From: Nitrospira sp.
GTDB taxonomy: Bacteria; Nitrospirota; Nitrospiria; Nitrospirales; Nitrospiraceae
Length of the DNA stretch: 64,000 nt
Assembly: GCA_036984305.1 (NCBI GenBank)
Contig: BQWY01000001.1
Location: 2,005,501-2,069,500 of the forward strand
Reading direction: 5' to 3'
A model generated the notes under the pieces. That model searched no databases. It saw only the letters and a list, made by a program, of their open reading frames with translations, and had not been told where the DNA came from. The stretch's first letter is position 1. Each line of letters begins with the position of its first letter. The position numbers and the translations under genes are program-made. Shown here piece by piece: positions 694 to 57,965 of this stretch.

Positions 694-3600
694 GTGAGAA
701 TTGAACGTCGATTCACCAGGCGAGGAGAGGGTCCTTACAGCCGCATTCAGTTCGTGAAACGCTCATCCGAGATTCGTAATCCGGATGGATCGGTCGTGTT
801 CAAGGTCGAGGACCTCCAAGTCCCTGACACGTGGACGCAGCTCGCCATCGACATTCTGGCGCAGAAGTATTTTCGGAAGGCCGGCGTGCCCCAGATTGAT
901 GCCGAGGGCCAGGCGCAGACGGATAAGGACGGTAAGCCTCTATTCGGTCCGGAGCGAGACGCCCGTCAGGTCTTTGAACGACTGGCCGGATGTTGGGCGT
1001 CGTGGGGCAAGCGGTATGGGTACTTCAAGGGCGACGATGATGCTACGGCGTTCCACGACGAGCTGTGTTACATGCTGGCCAAACAGATGGCGGCGCCGAA
1101 TTCCCCTCAATGGTTCAATACCGGTCTTCACTACGCTTATGGCCTCTCCGGGCCCGCGCAGGGCCACTATTATGTCGATCCGGACAGCCGAGAGGTCGTC
1201 AAAGCCACCAATGCCTTCGAGCACCCGCAACCCCATGCGTGTCAACCTTATGAGGCGCTGATATCTACGCCCAATGGACCGATTGCCATTGGCGACATTG
1301 TGACGCAACGGCTAATCGGTCTCACCGTGTTCGATGGCACCCGAGATGGGGCGGGTATCACACAAGTAGAAGCGGTTCAGGACAACGGCGTGAAGCCCGT
1401 CTTCCGGATTATGCTCAAGAACGGCGCCAGTGTCGATGCGACGGGCGATCACCTCGTGTGGGCCAAAGCGCAGCGACGAACCCGCGGGGCGTGGGCCCGC
1501 GTGGATTCGCTAGCGCCGGGGATGCGACTCGAGCTCTCGACGGTTACCCATGTCGAGAGTCGCCGCGACGAACGGGCCGAAGATGAGGCGGCGCTCGTGG
1601 GATGGCTACATGGTGATGGGTTTGTCGGCCAATATCAGCAGGGCACGAATCAAAGCCTTACCATGGAGTTCATGACGATCGACAAGGAGGAATTCCAGTT
1701 CGTGCTCGATCGGGTGCAGCGGGTGTTCCCAGAGGCGCACTTCCACGTCCGGACAGTCGAGACGCAGAATGCTGAGCTGGATGTGCGGCGCATCCGCCTC
1801 TATGGCGAACCCCTTCGTGCCTTCGTCGAAAAGTACGATCTGCTCCGCGGTCCGAAGCAAGAATTGGCAATCGGCGCCGCACTCTCTCGGTCCGGCCGTG
1901 AAGTGTGGGCGGCTTACTTGCGCGCCCTGTTTCAGGCCGACGGGACCGTGAGGCTGCGCTCGCGGCAATCCCGAACGTCCGACATTGTGCTCACGACAGT
2001 GTCGGGGCAACTGGCTCGCGAGGTCCAGGCTCTCTTGCTCAACGTGGGTATTTACTCCCGCGTTCAACGTGGTGTGGAGACCCGTGAGAACCGGCGAGTG
2101 CCGTACGTTGTTTCCATCGGCTATGCCCAGGCACGAGACCGTTTCCGCGAGATAATCGGCTTCGTGTCCGGCGACAAGCGTCGCAAACTCGATCAAGCCT
2201 GTTCAGACCGCTTCCCCGGAAAGGAATTGCCTGCTTTACGGGAAGAGACGATCGTTCGCATCGAGGCATTGGGTCCCATGCCCGTGTATGACATTCAAAC
2301 CTCCAGCGGTCAGTACCTGTCGAACAACGTCGTTGTGCACAATTGCTTTATCCAATCCGTCGACGACGACCTCGTGAACGGCAACGGCATCATGGATTTG
2401 TGGATTCGTGAAGCGCGGCTGTTCAAGTATGGATCCGGGACAGGGACAAATTTTTCTCGCCTGCGTGGCGACGCCGAGCCCCTGTCGGGGGGGGGGAAGT
2501 CGTCCGGGCTCATGTCATTTCTCAAAATCGGAGACCGTGCGGCCGGAGCCATCAAGTCCGGTGGAACGACACGGCGCGCCGCGAAGATGGTCTGTCTCGA
2601 TTTGGACCACCCCGACATCGAGGAATTCATCGACTGGAAGGTGGTGGAAGAGCAAAAAGTGGCCGCCATGGTCACAGGGTCCAAGATCTGCGCCGATCGG
2701 CTCAATGCCGTCTTGAGGGCCTGCCACGTCACGGATAACGCCGGGCAAACCCGTGTGGATCTCGATGCGGCCACGAACACCGGATTACGGGATGCCGTCA
2801 AGGCGGCACGGCGTGCGTGCGTTCCCGAGGCCTACATTCAACGCATGTTTGCCTATGCACGTGAAGGGTTCACCCACTTTGCCTTTCATGAGTACGACAC
2901 GAATTGGGATGGCAAAGCCTATCAGACCGTATCGGGTCAGAACTCCAATAACAGCATCCGCATTCCCAATCGCTTTTTCGACGCGCTGGCGCAAGACGGA
3001 GACTGGCACTTAACGCGGCGCACCGATGGGAAGGTGGTGAAGACGGTCAAGGCCCGCAAATTGTGGGACCAGATCGCGTGGGCGGCCTGGATCTGCGCGG
3101 ATCCCGGGACCCAATACGACACCACGATTAACGAGTGGCATACCTGTCCGGCTGACGGACGCATCAACGCCTCGAATCCCTGCTCGGAATACATGTTCCT
3201 GGACGATACGGCCTGCAACCTGGCGTCTCTCAATCTCGGGACATTCTTTACGGGCGCCGGGGAGTTCGAACTTGACGATTTTCGGCATGCCGTTCGTCTG
3301 TGGACCGTTGTGCTTGAAATCAGTGTGCTCATGGCGTCGTTCCCCAGCCGCGCGATCGCCGAAAAGAGCTACGAGTTTCGAACGCTGGGTTTGGGCTATG
3401 CCAATCTCGGCAGCGTGCTCATGCGGCAGGGGATCCCGTACGATTCGCCGAAGGCCTTGGCCATTTGCGGGGCGATCACGGCGATCATGACGGGAGAATC
3501 GTATGCGACCAGCGCCGAAATGGCCGCCTCGCTGGGTGCCTTCCCCGGTTATGCGAAAAACCGGGACCACATGCTACGGGTCATCCGCAACCATCGACGT

Positions 3601-5352
3601 GCAGCGTATGGATCGCCTGAAGCCGAATACGAAGACCTCACGGTTACGCCGATGGGGATTCACGCGGAACATTGTCCACCCGATTTACTTCTGGCGGCCC
3701 GGCGTGCGTGGGATCGCGCGCTGGAATTGGGTATGGCCTATGGCTACCGGAATGCCCAGGTGTCTGTGATCGCACCCACCGGCACGATCGGGTTGGTCAT
3801 GGATTGCGATACGACCGGGATCGAGCCTGATTTTGCGCTGGTCAAGTTCAAGAAGCTGGCCGGCGGTGGGTACTTCAAAATTATCAATCAAAGCGTCCCG
3901 CAAGCCTTGCGGACACTCGGGTATACGGAGCAGCAGATTCAAGACATCTCGGTCTATTGCACCGGACACAAGACGTTGGACGGAGCGCCGTTCATCAATC
4001 ACCAGACTTTGACCGCCAAGGGGTTCGACGCCCTCGCCCTGGAACGATTGGAAAACTCGCTCGGTCAAGCGTTCGACATTCAATTTGCCTTCAACAAATG
4101 GACGTTGGGCGAGGAATTTTGTCGCGAACGGCTTGGCCTGTCCGAGGAACAGTTGGCGGATTCGAAATTGAATCTCCTGAAAACCCTTGGATTCCGACAG
4201 GAGGAGATCGTCTCTGCGAATGACTATTGCTGCGGCACCATGACCGTGGAAGGGGCGCCGCACCTCAAGTCGGAACACCTGCCTGTGTTCGACTGCGCCA
4301 ACCGGTGCGGGCGAATCGGTCAACGCTATATCCCGGTCGATGCCCATATTCGTATGATGGCGGCAGCCCAACCGTTCATCAGCGGCGCCATCAGCAAGAC
4401 GATCAACATGCCGGGCGATGCCACCGTCGAAGACGTGAAAGATGCCTATCTGATGGCCTGGAAGCTCATGATCAAGGCGGTGGCCTTGTACCGCGACGGG
4501 TCGAAGCTCAGTCAGCCGTTGAATGCCTCGCATGATTTGGATGCGGTGGCCGAGACCAAGGCCGATGTGCTGGCGGCGGCAGAGAAGGCGGCGGAGCGCG
4601 TGCTGGTTCGTTACCGGTACCTTGGAAAGCGTCGGCCGCTCCCGACGAGGCGAAGCGGGTATACGCAGAAAGCGATCGTCGGTGGGCACAAACTGTATCT
4701 GCGAACCGGCGAGTATTCGGACGGCACGCTCGGGGAGATCTTTCTCGACATGCACAAGGAGGGCGCCGCGTTTCGAAGCCTCATGAATTGCTTTGCCATC
4801 GCGATCTCGCTGGGACTTCAGCACGGCGTGCCGCTGGAAGAATACGTCGAGGCCTTCGTCTTTACCCGATTCGAGCCGAATGGGCCGGTCAAACTGAACG
4901 ACCGCATCAAGATGTCCACGTCGATCATCGACTACATCTTCCGCGAACTGGCGGTCACATATCTCGAACGCTACGATCTCGCGCAGGTGGTGTCGGACGA
5001 TCTGCGTATGGATTCGATGAAGAAAGACGAACAGGATCCGGAATGCATGGCGGAGGAGGCGGACCCGGAGTTCCTCGCGTCCTCCACCTCGGTGCGGCCG
5101 GAATATTTCCCAGAGCGGCACGGGGTGATCGGACGAGCCAAGTCGAATGGGAATGGAAACGGCAACGGAAACGGCAGCGTGACCCACAAGGTCGAGGTGA
5201 CGCGCGAGACGCTGACCATGACGGCGGTGCAGGTTGCTCGGCAGCAGGGGTACGAAGGCGACCCGTGCCAGGAGTGCAAGCAGTTCAAGATGGTCAGAAA
5301 CGGCACCTGTTTAAAGTGCGAGAATTGCGGCGCCACGAGCGGGTGTTCCTAA
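694..5352 (+). CDS. nrdJ: Adenosylcobalamin-dependent (class II) ribonucleoside-diphosphate reductase, intein-containing
   Basis: It reduces ribonucleotides to deoxyribonucleotides using B12 as radical source. The precursor is 1552 aa; removing the 368-aa intein leaves 1184 aa. After the intein come the reductase barrel motifs [17 protein letters not shown] and NPCSE (N828, C830, E832 of the precursor), which carry the active-site Asn, Cys and Glu. A TSCPD-type domain follows at about 1330-1430, then an Asn/Gly-repeat linker (about 1484-1495) and a Cys-rich tail (CQEC, CLKCENC) likely to pass electrons from thioredoxin. The GTG start at 694 is preceded by a strong AAGGAGGAG ribosome site. Regulation by NrdR is indicated by the two upstream boxes. 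The class II assignment rests on sequence similarity and the lack of a neighbouring small subunit. Confidence 0.95.
1240..2343 (+). mobile_element. LAGLIDADG intein within nrdJ
   Basis: This in-frame 368-residue insertion interrupts the reductase between HPQPHA and CFIQSVDDD. It begins with Cys183 (CQPYEALIS) and ends with VVVHN at 549-550, followed by extein Cys551. These are the Cys1, His-Asn and Cys+1 residues needed for protein splicing. Two LAGLIDADG-type homing endonuclease motifs are visible ([13 protein letters not shown], 300-312; [13 protein letters not shown], 406-418). Both keep an acidic residue before the Gly, so the endonuclease may be active. The +1 Cys belongs to the conserved HACFI stretch and is probably one of the redox-active cysteines, so the enzyme needs splicing to work. 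Confidence 0.95.
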
Positions 5353-51032: not shown

Positions 51033-51209
51033 ATGAAGAACGTGGAAATGACTGTCCAAGGAACGGTGCTCACGATCACGGTCGATCTGTCAAAGGAGTT
51101 CGGGCCATCGTCGTCGGGGAAGACAATTATTATCGCCTCGACAGAGGGCAATGTGTCGATTCCAAATCGTGAAGAAAAGGTCGGCTTGAACGTCTACCGA
51201 AAGAAATGA
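51033..51209 (+). CDS. 58-aa conserved-looking small protein
   Basis: ATG 51033 follows a GAGAGG ribosome site. The product MKNVEMTVQGTVLTITVDLSKE... contains KEFGPSSSGKTIIIASTEGN and ends KVGLNVYRKK. From memory it matches a small conserved bacterial family of unknown function with the same V-D-L-S-x-x-F-G-x-S-S-S-G-K core. It is likely a small beta-rich cytoplasmic protein. It stands alone between the microprotein and the DnaA-box cluster. Confidence 0.75.
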   Translation: MKNVEMTVQGTVLTITVDLSKEFGPSSSGKTIIIASTEGNVSIPNREEKVGLNVYRKK

Positions 51210-51305: not shown

Positions 51306-51578
51306 TTATCCACAGATTAAGGCCGTTGCTGTGAATAAGCAGTTGCGACCCTCGTGAAAGCCACAGGGTCCATCGACACTATTGCAGTTGCCCGGTGATT
51401 CTGCCTTCGAGTTTCCCCACTCCTTGTGGAAAAGACAAAAACCGATTCGTCAAGCCACAAAATATGGGGTGTAGGTTATGTGACACACAATGCCTAATTT
51501 TTAGGCAATTCGCTCGGAACAGCGTCCATATGGGTCATTTGTGCCCTCAAAGTCGCTCCACTCACAGAGTTATCCACA
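51306..51578. promoter_or_regulatory. Cluster of four DnaA boxes
   Basis: Boxes matching TTWTNCACA lie at 51306-51314 (TTATCCACA), 51330-51338 (TGTGAATAA, reverse of TTATTCACA), 51425-51433 (TGTGGAAAA, reverse of TTTTCCACA) and 51570-51578 (TTATCCACA). A weaker TGTGGATGT is at 51645-51653. The region has no gene and includes a TGCCTAA-TTT-TTAGGCA palindrome at 51491-51507. Such clusters mark replication origins or DnaA-titration sites. No replication gene is adjacent, so its role is open. Confidence 0.6.
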
Positions 51579-51712
51579 GATCCTGGGGAGTGCAATGGCG
51601 TGCGGGAGACCATGCGGTGAGGATATCCCAACGATTCGTAGGTCTGTGGATGTTATGATGCCACTTGTGTGCGCGTAAATCTCACTGTTGTCTATGAAAG
51701 GACGGGATCGCA

Positions 51713-52114
51713 ATGCGCGTTGCAGGATTATTCGGCGGGACGATTTTAGCGGTACTTTTGGCATCGAATCAGGGATGGACGGCGGATTCGGCGGAGATCG
51801 GACGATTCGTGAACGCACGGATTGAAATCGGTGAGATGATGACGAACTACTTCCAAGGTGGCGAGCGGTTCGGCGAAGGAGAGCGCCCGTCGCCGGAACG
51901 CATGCAGGAGATGCGCACGGATATCAATTCGAAGGTGAGTGCAGTATTGTCCAAATACGGACTCACCATCGAAGAATACCGGGGGCGAAGCAAGGAGATC
52001 TTTGGTGATGAGGCAGCGGTGAAGAGTTATCTGGATCAACATCCTGATCTGAAATCCAGATACGAGGCGCTGCCGCTGGATCGGATGGGGAGCGGGGGCG
52101 GTCGCCGATATTAA
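51713..52114 (+). CDS. Small secreted protein, 133 aa
   Basis: A signal peptide (AGLFGGTILAVLLASNQGWTA) is followed by a helical acidic domain (IGRFVNARIEIGEMMTNYF, PERMQEMRTDINSKVSAVLSKYGLTIEEYRG) and a Gly/Arg tail. It has no Cys in the mature part. The pattern is loosely like DUF4168-type helical periplasmic proteins, without confidence. A GAAAGGACGGG ribosome site precedes the start. Confidence 0.7.
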   Translation: MRVAGLFGGTILAVLLASNQGWTADSAEIGRFVNARIEIGEMMTNYFQGGERFGEGERPSPERMQEMRTDINSKVSAVLSKYGLTIEEYRGRSKEIFGDEAAVKSYLDQHPDLKSRYEALPLDRMGSGGGRRY

Positions 52115-54709: not shown

Positions 54710-56896
54710 ATGGCCACGAAGAAAGCGTCCGCTTCATCGGTGAAAGTAGTTCGCGCAACCACTCCGATCATGACCGACCATCCTGACGCCCGCCTTGCCG
54801 GTGCCGAGGATAAGCCGAAGAAATCCAACGGGAAAACCACAGCTCCCGTCACGGCGGCGGAGATGGGCTCACGGCAGCGTGAGATCTCCGTGTCGGAATT
54901 TTTCACCAAGAACCGGCATCTCTTGGGGTTTGACAACCCGCGCAAGGCCCTTCTCACATGCGTCAAAGAGGCGGTCGACAATGCCTTGGATGCCTGTGAA
55001 GAAGCAGGCATTCTGCCAGAGGTCACAGTCAAGCTCGACGTCGTGTCCGAGGGCGGGACGGTCGCGCCGAGCCAGGCGACCCGTTTTCGGATCACCGTGA
55101 CGGACAACGGGCCTGGAATCGTGCGACAGCATATTCCGCGGATCTTCGCGAAATTGCTATATGGCTCGAAATTTCACCGCATGCGGATGAGTCGCGGGCA
55201 GCAGGGGATCGGTATTTCAGCAGCCGGAATGTACGGACAGCTCACCACCGGGAAGCCGGTAAAAATCATTTCCAGGACCGGACCGAGAGCTACCGCGCAT
55301 TTTTTTGAAGTACAAATCGACACGAAGAAAAATGAGCCGTTAGTCCACGAAAACAAGCAGATTGAATGGAACCGCCCCCAGGGCACGGAGGTGGTGCTGG
55401 AAGTCGAGGGGAAGTACCAGAAGGGGCGAGCATCGGTGGACGAATGGCTTGAACAAACCTCGATCGCCAATCCGCACGTTCGGCTCGTCTATCATGCGCC
55501 TGAAGGAGAAACCAAGGAGTACCCGCGGACCTATCATGAATTGCCCCCCTCGCCGCGCGAGATCAAACCGCATCCCTATGGCATTGAGTTCGGCATGTTC
55601 CTCAAAATGCTCCAGGACACGAAGAGCCATTCGATTTCCGGTTTTCTCGCCAGCGACTTCTGTCGGGTTTCGTCGCAGTTGGCGGACGACATATGCAAAG
55701 CGGCCAAGCTTTCCGCAAACCTCAAGCCGCGTGAATTGAAGGGCGCCGCCGCGGAAACTCTGTATAAAACGATCCAAACCATGAAGATAATGGCGCCTCC
55801 CACCAATTGCATTTCGCCCATCGGAGAAAAGGCCATCCTCTCCGGATTGTACAAGCAGATCAAAGGCGTGTTTTATACGGCCGTGACGCGGCCTCCAGCC
55901 GTCTACCGAGGCAATCCCTTCGTCATCGAGGCAGGACTGGCGTTTGGTTCGCGCCCCCAGCAACAGATCAAGCCGGCCCAGCCCCTAATGGCCAAGGCCG
56001 AAGGCGAGGAGGAGGACGAGGACTCGGAGTTGGCCCGCGTCATCCGCTACGCCAACCGTGTCCCGCTGCTCTATCAGCAGTCGGCTTGTTCCACGTTCAA
56101 GGCCGTCTTGAGTACCACCTGGAAAAACTACGGCGTCTCGCAATCTCGGGGGGCGCTGCCTTCGGGCCCGATGGTTATTTTCGTGCATATGGCGTCGGTC
56201 TGGGTCCCGTTTACGAGCGAATCGAAAGAGGCCATCGCCGATTACGACGAAATTCAAAAGGAGATTACGCTGGCGCTTCGCGAGTGCGGGCGCCGGTTGG
56301 GCCTCTTCATACGGCGGCGCGAACGTGCGGTCAGCGAGTTTCGTCGGCGCAATATCTTCGAGCTGTACATCGAGGAAGTGGCCGAGGCATGCCATCGCCT
56401 CAAGGGCGGGAAGATCCCCACGGACAGGTTGAAGCAGCAGCTCCAACAGATCGCCTCTACCCGAACTGGCGGCGAGAAGACCGAAGAGGCACTGGGGAAG
56501 CGAGGAGGCGGTCCGGAAGGCTTGCCCCATTCGATCATCGTCACGGAGGAGGGGGTTGAAGGCGAAGTTGATCTGGCTTCGCAGATCGAGGCGGACGCAG
56601 GGGCTCCCGGTCGGTCAGACGACTCGAGACGACCCTCTGTCGAGTCGACCGCCGACAAGACGTTGAAGGCCGGATCGACACAGGCGAGCGGACGTGTATC
56701 TGCCGCACGGAGACACGTGGCGCAGACGTCAAAATCGAGAAGGGAAAAGGCGAGCCAGATGGCCTTGTTCGCGGACGGGTCCGCGGCGACCACAACAAAC
56801 GGGAAAAGGGGCGGGAAAACCAATAAGTCGGCTGTCCCGACGAGGAAGGAAATAGCGCTCCATGGCGACAAAAGAAAAAAAGCAAACCGTCGTTGA
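54710..56896 (+). CDS. top6B: DNA topoisomerase VI subunit B
   Basis: The 728-aa ATPase subunit has the GHKL fold: KEAVDNALDACEEAG (86-100, with the metal Asn-Glu), VTDNGPGI and KLLYGSKFHRMRMSRGQQGIGISAAGMYGQL. The transducer domain follows, with ISPIGEKAILSGLYKQI and RYANRVPLLYQQSACS. There is a Lys/Thr-rich N-terminal extension of about 55 residues and a low-complexity C-terminus (about 600-728) beyond the usual family length. With subunit A it passes one DNA duplex through another using ATP. It overlaps top6A by 35 nt. Confidence 0.95.
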   Translation: MATKKASASSVKVVRATTPIMTDHPDARLAGAEDKPKKSNGKTTAPVTAAEMGSRQREISVSEFFTKNRHLLGFDNPRKALLTCVKEAVDNALDACEEAGILPEVTVKLDVVSEGGTVAPSQATRFRITVTDNGPGIVRQHIPRIFAKLLYGSKFHRMRMSRGQQGIGISAAGMYGQLTTGKPVKIISRTGPRATAHFFEVQIDTKKNEPLVHENKQIEWNRPQGTEVVLEVEGKYQKGRASVDEWLEQTSIANPHVRLVYHAPEGETKEYPRTYHELPPSPREIKPHPYGIEFGMFLKMLQDTKSHSISGFLASDFCRVSSQLADDICKAAKLSANLKPRELKGAAAETLYKTIQTMKIMAPPTNCISPIGEKAILSGLYKQIKGVFYTAVTRPPAVYRGNPFVIEAGLAFGSRPQQQIKPAQPLMAKAEGEEEDEDSELARVIRYANRVPLLYQQSACSTFKAVLSTTWKNYGVSQSRGALPSGPMVIFVHMASVWVPFTSESKEAIADYDEIQKEITLALRECGRRLGLFIRRRERAVSEFRRRNIFELYIEEVAEACHRLKGGKIPTDRLKQQLQQIASTRTGGEKTEEALGKRGGGPEGLPHSIIVTEEGVEGEVDLASQIEADAGAPGRSDDSRRPSVESTADKTLKAGSTQASGRVSAARRHVAQTSKSRREKASQMALFADGSAATTTNGKRGGKTNKSAVPTRKEIALHGDKRKKANRR

Positions 56897-57965
56897 GAAG
56901 AAACTCATTGGGCTCGCCGACGTCGTCATCACAGCAGCGGACCGGTCCAAGGATCCTACGTTTGCCATCCCCATCCGAGCCCTGTCGAACGTGTCGTTTA
57001 ATCCCCGGAAGGGCATGATCGAAATGGGAGGTAAAAAGCAGGCCCGCTCATTCTTCAACATGGGTATGGCGAAGAAATTCATGCAAACAATGTTGGTCGC
57101 CGATGCTCTCTCCGAGCTGCAGCGCGCCGATCTGACCACCTCGCTCCGCGAAATTTATTATCGCACGAAGCACACCATCAAGAACTCACACGAGAATACG
57201 TTCGACACTCAGGACGAGTCGGATCCGGTCATCGAGGATCTCGAAGTCACATTGGCTGCTCTACGGGAGGAACTCCATGTGCGCGCCGAGAACGCCGGCA
57301 GTATCGTCGGACCGGTGGTATTCGGAGATGACGGCGATCGGGTCGACTGCGCGCGTTTAGGCAAGGGTGGGTACTCAGTGCCCTCGATCGTCGAACCCGA
57401 GTATCTGGAGATTCGTCGGTGTACCGCGGACTTTCTCTTGCTTGTGGAAAAAGGCACGCAGTGGAACCGGTTGTCCGAGGACAAGTTCTGGCGCCGCTAC
57501 AATTGTGTTCTGTTGACAGGGAACGGCCAGCCTCCGCGCGGCGTTCGTCGCCTTGCCCGCCGTTTGCATGAGGAATACCGCCTGCCGGTCTATGTGCTCG
57601 TCGACAACGATCCATGGGGATATTACATCTACTCCGTGGTCAAGCAGGGTTCAATCAACCTCGCGTTCGAAAGCCAGCGGATGGCCATCCCGAAGGCCAA
57701 GTTCATCGGTCTTTCGAGCGCAGACCCGGAACGGTACGAGTTGCCGCGGAACGTGGGCATTAAGCTGAATGAAAAGGACATCGCGCGCGCGAAGGAGTTG
57801 ATGAATTACCAGTGGTTTCAGAAGCCGGCGTGGCAGGCGGAGATTAAACGCATGTTGGCGATCGGTCTGAAGTACGAACTTGACGCTCTCGCCAACAAGG
57901 ATTTTCAGTATCTGACCAAAAAGTATCTGCCCAGAAAGTTGAAGGAAAAGGATTGGTTGGACTGA
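56862..57965 (+). CDS. top6A: DNA topoisomerase VI subunit A (Spo11-like)
   Basis: The 367-aa subunit carries the catalytic tyrosine in SLREIYYRTKHTIKNS (Tyr100 by alignment to the family) and the Toprim acid pair in LPVYVLVDNDPWGYYIYSVVKQGS. The family pattern PRGVRRLARRLHEEY also occurs. It cuts both DNA strands with two-base overhangs. The ATG lies inside the end of top6B, so the subunits are translationally coupled. Confidence 0.96.
   Translation: MATKEKKQTVVEKKLIGLADVVITAADRSKDPTFAIPIRALSNVSFNPRKGMIEMGGKKQARSFFNMGMAKKFMQTMLVADALSELQRADLTTSLREIYYRTKHTIKNSHENTFDTQDESDPVIEDLEVTLAALREELHVRAENAGSIVGPVVFGDDGDRVDCARLGKGGYSVPSIVEPEYLEIRRCTADFLLLVEKGTQWNRLSEDKFWRRYNCVLLTGNGQPPRGVRRLARRLHEEYRLPVYVLVDNDPWGYYIYSVVKQGSINLAFESQRMAIPKAKFIGLSSADPERYELPRNVGIKLNEKDIARAKELMNYQWFQKPAWQAEIKRMLAIGLKYELDALANKDFQYLTKKYLPRKLKEKDWLD

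Follow-up and report, generated by a model that had tools for sequence, protein, structure and literature searches.

The closest described relatives of the locus analysed here are the DnaA-reactivating sites of Escherichia coli, DARS1 and DARS2. For E. coli it is established that DnaA boxes I and II of these sites stand face to face and that ADP is released there (PMC8682772), and the mechanism of the core has been described (PMC8682772, PMC4245941). In both, boxes III and II stand in tandem 12 bp apart and box I is inverted 14 bp from box II; read on its other strand, DARS1 has the sequence TAATACACATGGTTATCCACAGGAATAGTGGATAA, namely box III, 12 bp, box II, 14 bp and inverted box I. DARS1 lies in the bioD-uvrB intergenic region and overlaps the uvrBp3 promoter, and DnaA represses uvrB (PMC6015884). 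Gammaproteobacteria related to E. coli conserve the DARS2 core together with Fis (PMC4245941), and many proteobacteria have DARS-like sequences (PMC10380432).

The window, a 64,000-nucleotide stretch of a Nitrospira chromosome (C1:2005501-2069500 of a 4,199,816-bp contig, C1), contains a cluster of four exact TTWTNCACA sites within 273 bp, just as the initial annotation had it. Seven exact sites occur in the whole window, against 1.45 +/- 1.18 in shuffled sequence. The genome holds 109 in 4.35 Mb, or one per 40 kb, a lower density than the one per 16 kb first assumed at 50% GC, and at this density some 5e-6 clusters of four sites in 273 bp are expected per genome. The palindrome reported nearby is TGCCTAATTTTTAGGCA, and the fifth, weaker box most probably corresponds to CCACTCACA, which precedes the last of the strong boxes by 12 bp. 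The segment is gene-free, as had been noted: between a 58-aa ORF (51033-51209) and a 133-aa ORF (51713-52114), neither of which has a Pfam match, only short ORFs without signs of a gene are present. The G+C content of the element is 49%, versus 58% for the window. The DNA of the 58-aa ORF is about 72-82% identical in many relatives despite its lack of a Pfam match. Further along the window, at 54710-57965, genes for the B and A subunits of topoisomerase VI stand side by side, in a bacterium, and the element precedes the B gene by about 0.8 kb in many relatives. Together with the Nitrospira names of public records that carry the same element, the topoisomerase VI genes fit a Nitrospira-type bacterium.

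Table 1. Features of the element copy in the window (positions are those of the window).
Feature	Position	Strand	Basis
Whole element, copy 1 of the genome	51306-51592 (C1:2056806-2057092)	+	BLAST and profile matches in the family; boxes at fixed offsets from the palindrome in 34 copies
Outer DnaA box TTATCCACA	51306-51314	+	Exact consensus; B-dyad 185 bp to the right; many copies have a box-like site at -182 to -185
Outer DnaA box TTATTCACA	51330-51338	-	Exact consensus; B-dyad 161 bp to the right; most close copies have a box at -158 to -161
DnaA box TTTTCCACA	51425-51433	-	Exact consensus; 66 bp left of the B-dyad; present there in about half of the close copies
A-dyad CCACAAAATATGGGGT	51455-51470		Alignments; consensus in diverse copies CCACTAGATATAGTGG
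B-dyad TGCCTA-N5-TAGGCA	51491-51507		Nearly invariant in Nitrospirales; accompanies the core in many Proteobacteria
Box III of DARS-type core, CCACTCACA	51558-51566	+	Weak (TTWTNCACA with 3 mismatches); precedes box II by 12 bp, compare E. coli DARS1 and DARS2
Box II of DARS-type core, TTATCCACA	51570-51578	+	Exact consensus
Box I of DARS-type core, inverted, weak	51584-51592	-	Only the TCCCCA half kept (TGGGGAGTG on the + strand); TGKGGA conserved in Nitrospirales

By BLAST, the stretch has non-coding relatives in other genomes, and the present genome carries it a second time, at C1:905972-906131. In 34 copies the boxes keep set offsets and orientations relative to the palindrome (-185>, -160<, -66<, +67> and +79>), with not every box present in every copy. 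A profile of the element matches 171 of 175 genomes of the family, in 1-9 copies each, including all 114 that are at least 90% complete and at most 5% contaminated. It also matches those further genomes of the order to which it was applied, and across the phylum it matches 194 of 379 genomes, those of distant classes mostly by weak, single matches. The B-dyad, allowing 2 mismatches, occurs in this genome at the two elements only, and about 55 of 61 Nitrospirales copies have the A-dyad at -36 to -39 (at least 13 of 16 positions). From left to right, the Nitrospirales layout reads outer boxes, A-dyad, B-dyad, about 50 bp, and then TNATNCACA-3-TTATCCACA-5-TGKGGA.

Like a DARS, the element is a non-coding, intergenic and conserved chromosomal locus. 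The Nitrospirales copies lie between genes, and the neighbours differ in both identity and direction, convergent pairs at two loci included. A structured RNA was ruled out, as the element has no Rfam match and the palindrome arms are kept in sequence, as for a protein site. A promoter of the 133-aa gene was likewise ruled out, since element and gene do not occur together in two other genomes. Among neighbours named by eye, this genome's second copy shares its location with the copy of one other genome, both being flanked by a radical-SAM gene and an IspG-like gene; four Nitrospirales copies adjoin a LexA-like repressor gene and another adjoins a DinB/ImuB-like gene.

The right end of the element is a box module of the form III> (12 bp) II> (14 bp) I<, with spacing and orientation identical to those of DARS1 and DARS2. 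The three-box core of a DARS, with III and II as a tandem pair and I inverted, is present in the element family as a whole. In the window copy the boxes occupy the right places, with boxes I and III weak; box I has 4 mismatches to TTATCCACA. Since these two boxes are weak, and the core of the copy near 906 kb is far better, the window copy may be the weaker or decayed one of the pair.

Core models were used to scan 62.5 kb of E. coli sequence. A Nitrospirales-only core matrix scores DARS1 at 31.7 bits, DARS2 at 23.5 and datA at 18.9, compared with a highest score of 7.5 across the 50 kb surrounding E. coli oriC. When a core model is applied locally, datA and DARS1 both reach 19.5 bits, because they have the tandem pair III-II in common. 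These scores bear on a first alternative, that the element is a datA-like or titration site whose boxes hold DnaA or promote ATP hydrolysis and so leave DnaA less active. The shared tandem pair speaks for such a site, as do the up to three further boxes of Nitrospira copies and the presence of multiple copies. However, datA has no inverted box at +14 and its IHF site is on the opposite side, at about +76, while the element conserves an inverted half-box together with an IHF site or A-dyad on the DARS side. Judged by these sequences, the inverted box I is what separates DARS from datA, and we regard a datA-like role as unlikely, though it is the alternative that survives best.

The arrangement extends beyond Nitrospirota. 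We scanned 84,980 species genomes for the B-dyad followed by the box pair, allowing 79-99 bp, and obtained at least 119 matching stretches; among the matches listed, all have 86-89 bp and 83 have 88 bp. The matches listed include Alpha-, Beta-, Gamma- and Zetaproteobacteria and Geobacter relatives (Desulfuromonadota), and 105 of them are not visibly Nitrospira, some of which may still be Nitrospira. The scan pattern did not require box I. Among these 105 matches listed, 55 carry an inverted box I (at most 2 mismatches) at +14 and 5 carry one at +13, with none at offsets 9-12 or 15-21; the strong inverted box at +14 in Proteobacteria thus occupies the place of the weak box I of the element. An IHF consensus lies 19-21 bp left of the B-dyad start in 40 of the 105 matches listed, compared with 0.13 per position elsewhere. 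This position is about 87 bp before box III, and IBS1 of E. coli DARS2 likewise lies at -87. Fujimitsu et al. 2009 is reportedly a source for DARS-like sequences in many proteobacteria, and the proteobacterial copies may in part be known already. In the DARS2 region of E. coli itself (L211), a second III-12-II-14-I stretch is found at 2450-2488 (CTTACACCA, TTATCCACA, TTATCCCAG); the other stretch of that geometry has IHF sites at -87 and -71.

The proteobacterial surroundings raise a second alternative, an operator or promoter region at which DnaA and dyad-binding proteins control a neighbouring gene such as uvrC or priA. By protein sequences named by eye, uvrC is near 57 of the 119 matches listed, mostly directly downstream and in the same direction, with uvrB also present in 10 of those 57, and priA is near 15 of the 119; the overlap of E. 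coli DARS1 with a promoter at which DnaA acts as a repressor (PMC6015884) is in keeping with this. Yet none of the sampled Nitrospirales copies adjoins uvrB, uvrC or priA, and a promoter role is disfavoured because the placing of the element in Nitrospirales varies so widely, extending to positions between convergent genes. We consider an operator or promoter region an improbable explanation of the element. Operator and DARS roles are not mutually exclusive, since both coincide in E. coli.

The position of the cluster on the chromosome bears on the two remaining alternatives. The dnaA gene is at C1:440, where the GC skew changes sign; up to about 2.07 Mb positive skew prevails, and negative skew over the rest. 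Near the cluster the cumulative skew has its maximum at 2,076,040, 19 kb from the cluster, which itself lies at 49% of the chromosome. With dnaA and the skew minimum at the contig start and the maximum 19 kb off, the cluster is near the terminus, not the origin. A function bound to the terminus, in which the cluster would mark the end of replication, agrees with this position and with one copy near mid-chromosome in each of two other genomes. Against it, copies occupy many positions on the circle in 17 genomes, most often 0.2-0.3 from dnaA, and the second copy of this genome lies at 0.216; a terminus function is therefore very improbable. A matrix made from a few dif sequences found no convincing dif-like site near the cluster. 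Although 15 of 40 copies fall at 0.2-0.3 of the circle from dnaA, the genomes are related and so not independent, and we make no claim for a preferred chromosome position. The suggestion that the cluster is the chromosome origin, or a second one, draws on several DnaA boxes in DNA of lower G+C than the window and is scarcely credible, given that skew minimum and dnaA are elsewhere and that a genome may hold up to 9 copies rather than one.

Two dyads accompany the boxes. The A-dyad of Nitrospirales stands where Proteobacteria carry IHF sites, and no IHF consensus is found at the expected place in Nitrospirales copies; IHF sites at the distance of IBS1-2 of DARS2, about 60-87 bp from the core, are thus missing there, and many of the proteobacterial relatives have one at -87. 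The sequence of the B-dyad agrees with the Fis consensus GnnYAnnnnnTRnnC (PMC8682772), at a position different from that of FBS2-3. A stand-alone HTH_8 protein of Fis size was not found in this genome, all 23 HTH_8 matches lying in frames of at least 310 aa. More generally, the B-dyad has the form that is usual for binding sites of Fis-type HTH domains. The A-dyad is similar to the NrdR-box consensus, a resemblance and nothing further. Elsewhere in the window, two NrdR-box-like palindromes (ACACAATATTTAGTGT at 527-542 and TACCTATATGTAGGTG at 559-574, 32 bp apart) precede a ribonucleotide reductase gene, accompanied by a DnaA box at 437-445. That gene, at 694-5352, encodes a class II (B12-dependent) enzyme split by an insertion of the LAGLIDADG type, which is probably an intein.

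The conservation of the element, its fixed spacing and the agreement of its geometry with the DARS core argue for a site that controls replication, most probably a reactivating one of the DARS type and not a passive reservoir. In its general kind, the suggestion of a DnaA reservoir or a replication control site made in the initial annotation is supported. More specifically, our analysis favours the cluster as one copy of a DARS2-type DnaA-reactivating element that, with accessory proteins, probably recharges ADP-DnaA. In such an element ADP-DnaA would bind the three core boxes, with boxes I and II face to face. A protein on the B-dyad, together with a DNA-bending or sensing protein on the A-dyad (IHF in Proteobacteria), would shape the complex, from which ADP would leave DnaA. 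The apo-DnaA so freed would then take up ATP for the next initiation. Counted against a DARS-type element are the mismatches in boxes III and I of the window copy, the presence of the tandem pair III-II in datA as well, the lack of an IHF consensus in Nitrospirales, and the dependence of E. coli DARS2 on Fis, of which no stand-alone form was found here.

As far as the open-access literature searched shows, the Nitrospirota form and the dyads are new. If the DARS reading is true, a DARS-type core with two strict dyads is present in a second phylum, where nearly all genomes of one family carry it, and DnaA recharging would be a broad bacterial control. The conserved A- and B-dyads offer a direct handle for finding the accessory proteins, and the sequence pattern lets DARS-type sites be found in organisms with none known. 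A bolder, tentative proposal, which we hold to be possible but on balance doubtful, is that of an ancient general DnaA-recharging module, older than the split between Nitrospirota and Proteobacteria and gated by a conserved protein on TGCCTA-N5-TAGGCA, in which a protein on the NrdR-box-like dyad has replaced the IHF input in Nitrospirales. Were this so, initiation could be tied to the nucleotide pool.

Set beside the known systems, the element resembles oriC in its clustered DnaA boxes and differs in being multi-copy and away from both the skew minimum and dnaA. With datA it shares the tandem box pair at 12-bp spacing (TTGTAAACA-3-TTATCCACA in datA) and the involvement of IHF, and it departs from datA in the inverted box and the side of the IHF site. 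DARS1 is the closest in core sequence and spacing among the E. coli sites scanned, and it adjoins a nucleotide-excision-repair gene, as do many proteobacterial copies; in contrast to the element, DARS1 has no IHF or Fis consensus that we found within 220 bp and no B-dyad visible by eye. DARS2 differs in that Nitrospirales have the A-dyad in place of its IHF site, in that the B-dyad lies between the core and the IHF or A site whereas the E. coli Fis sites lie beyond IHF, and in that the element occurs in 1-9 copies with box I often reduced to TGKGGA. Element and DARS2 nonetheless share three core boxes in the same orientation and 12/14 spacing, a non-coding location, extra DnaA boxes and an accessory site on the same side of the core, which in the proteobacterial relatives is an IHF site at the very position of IBS1.
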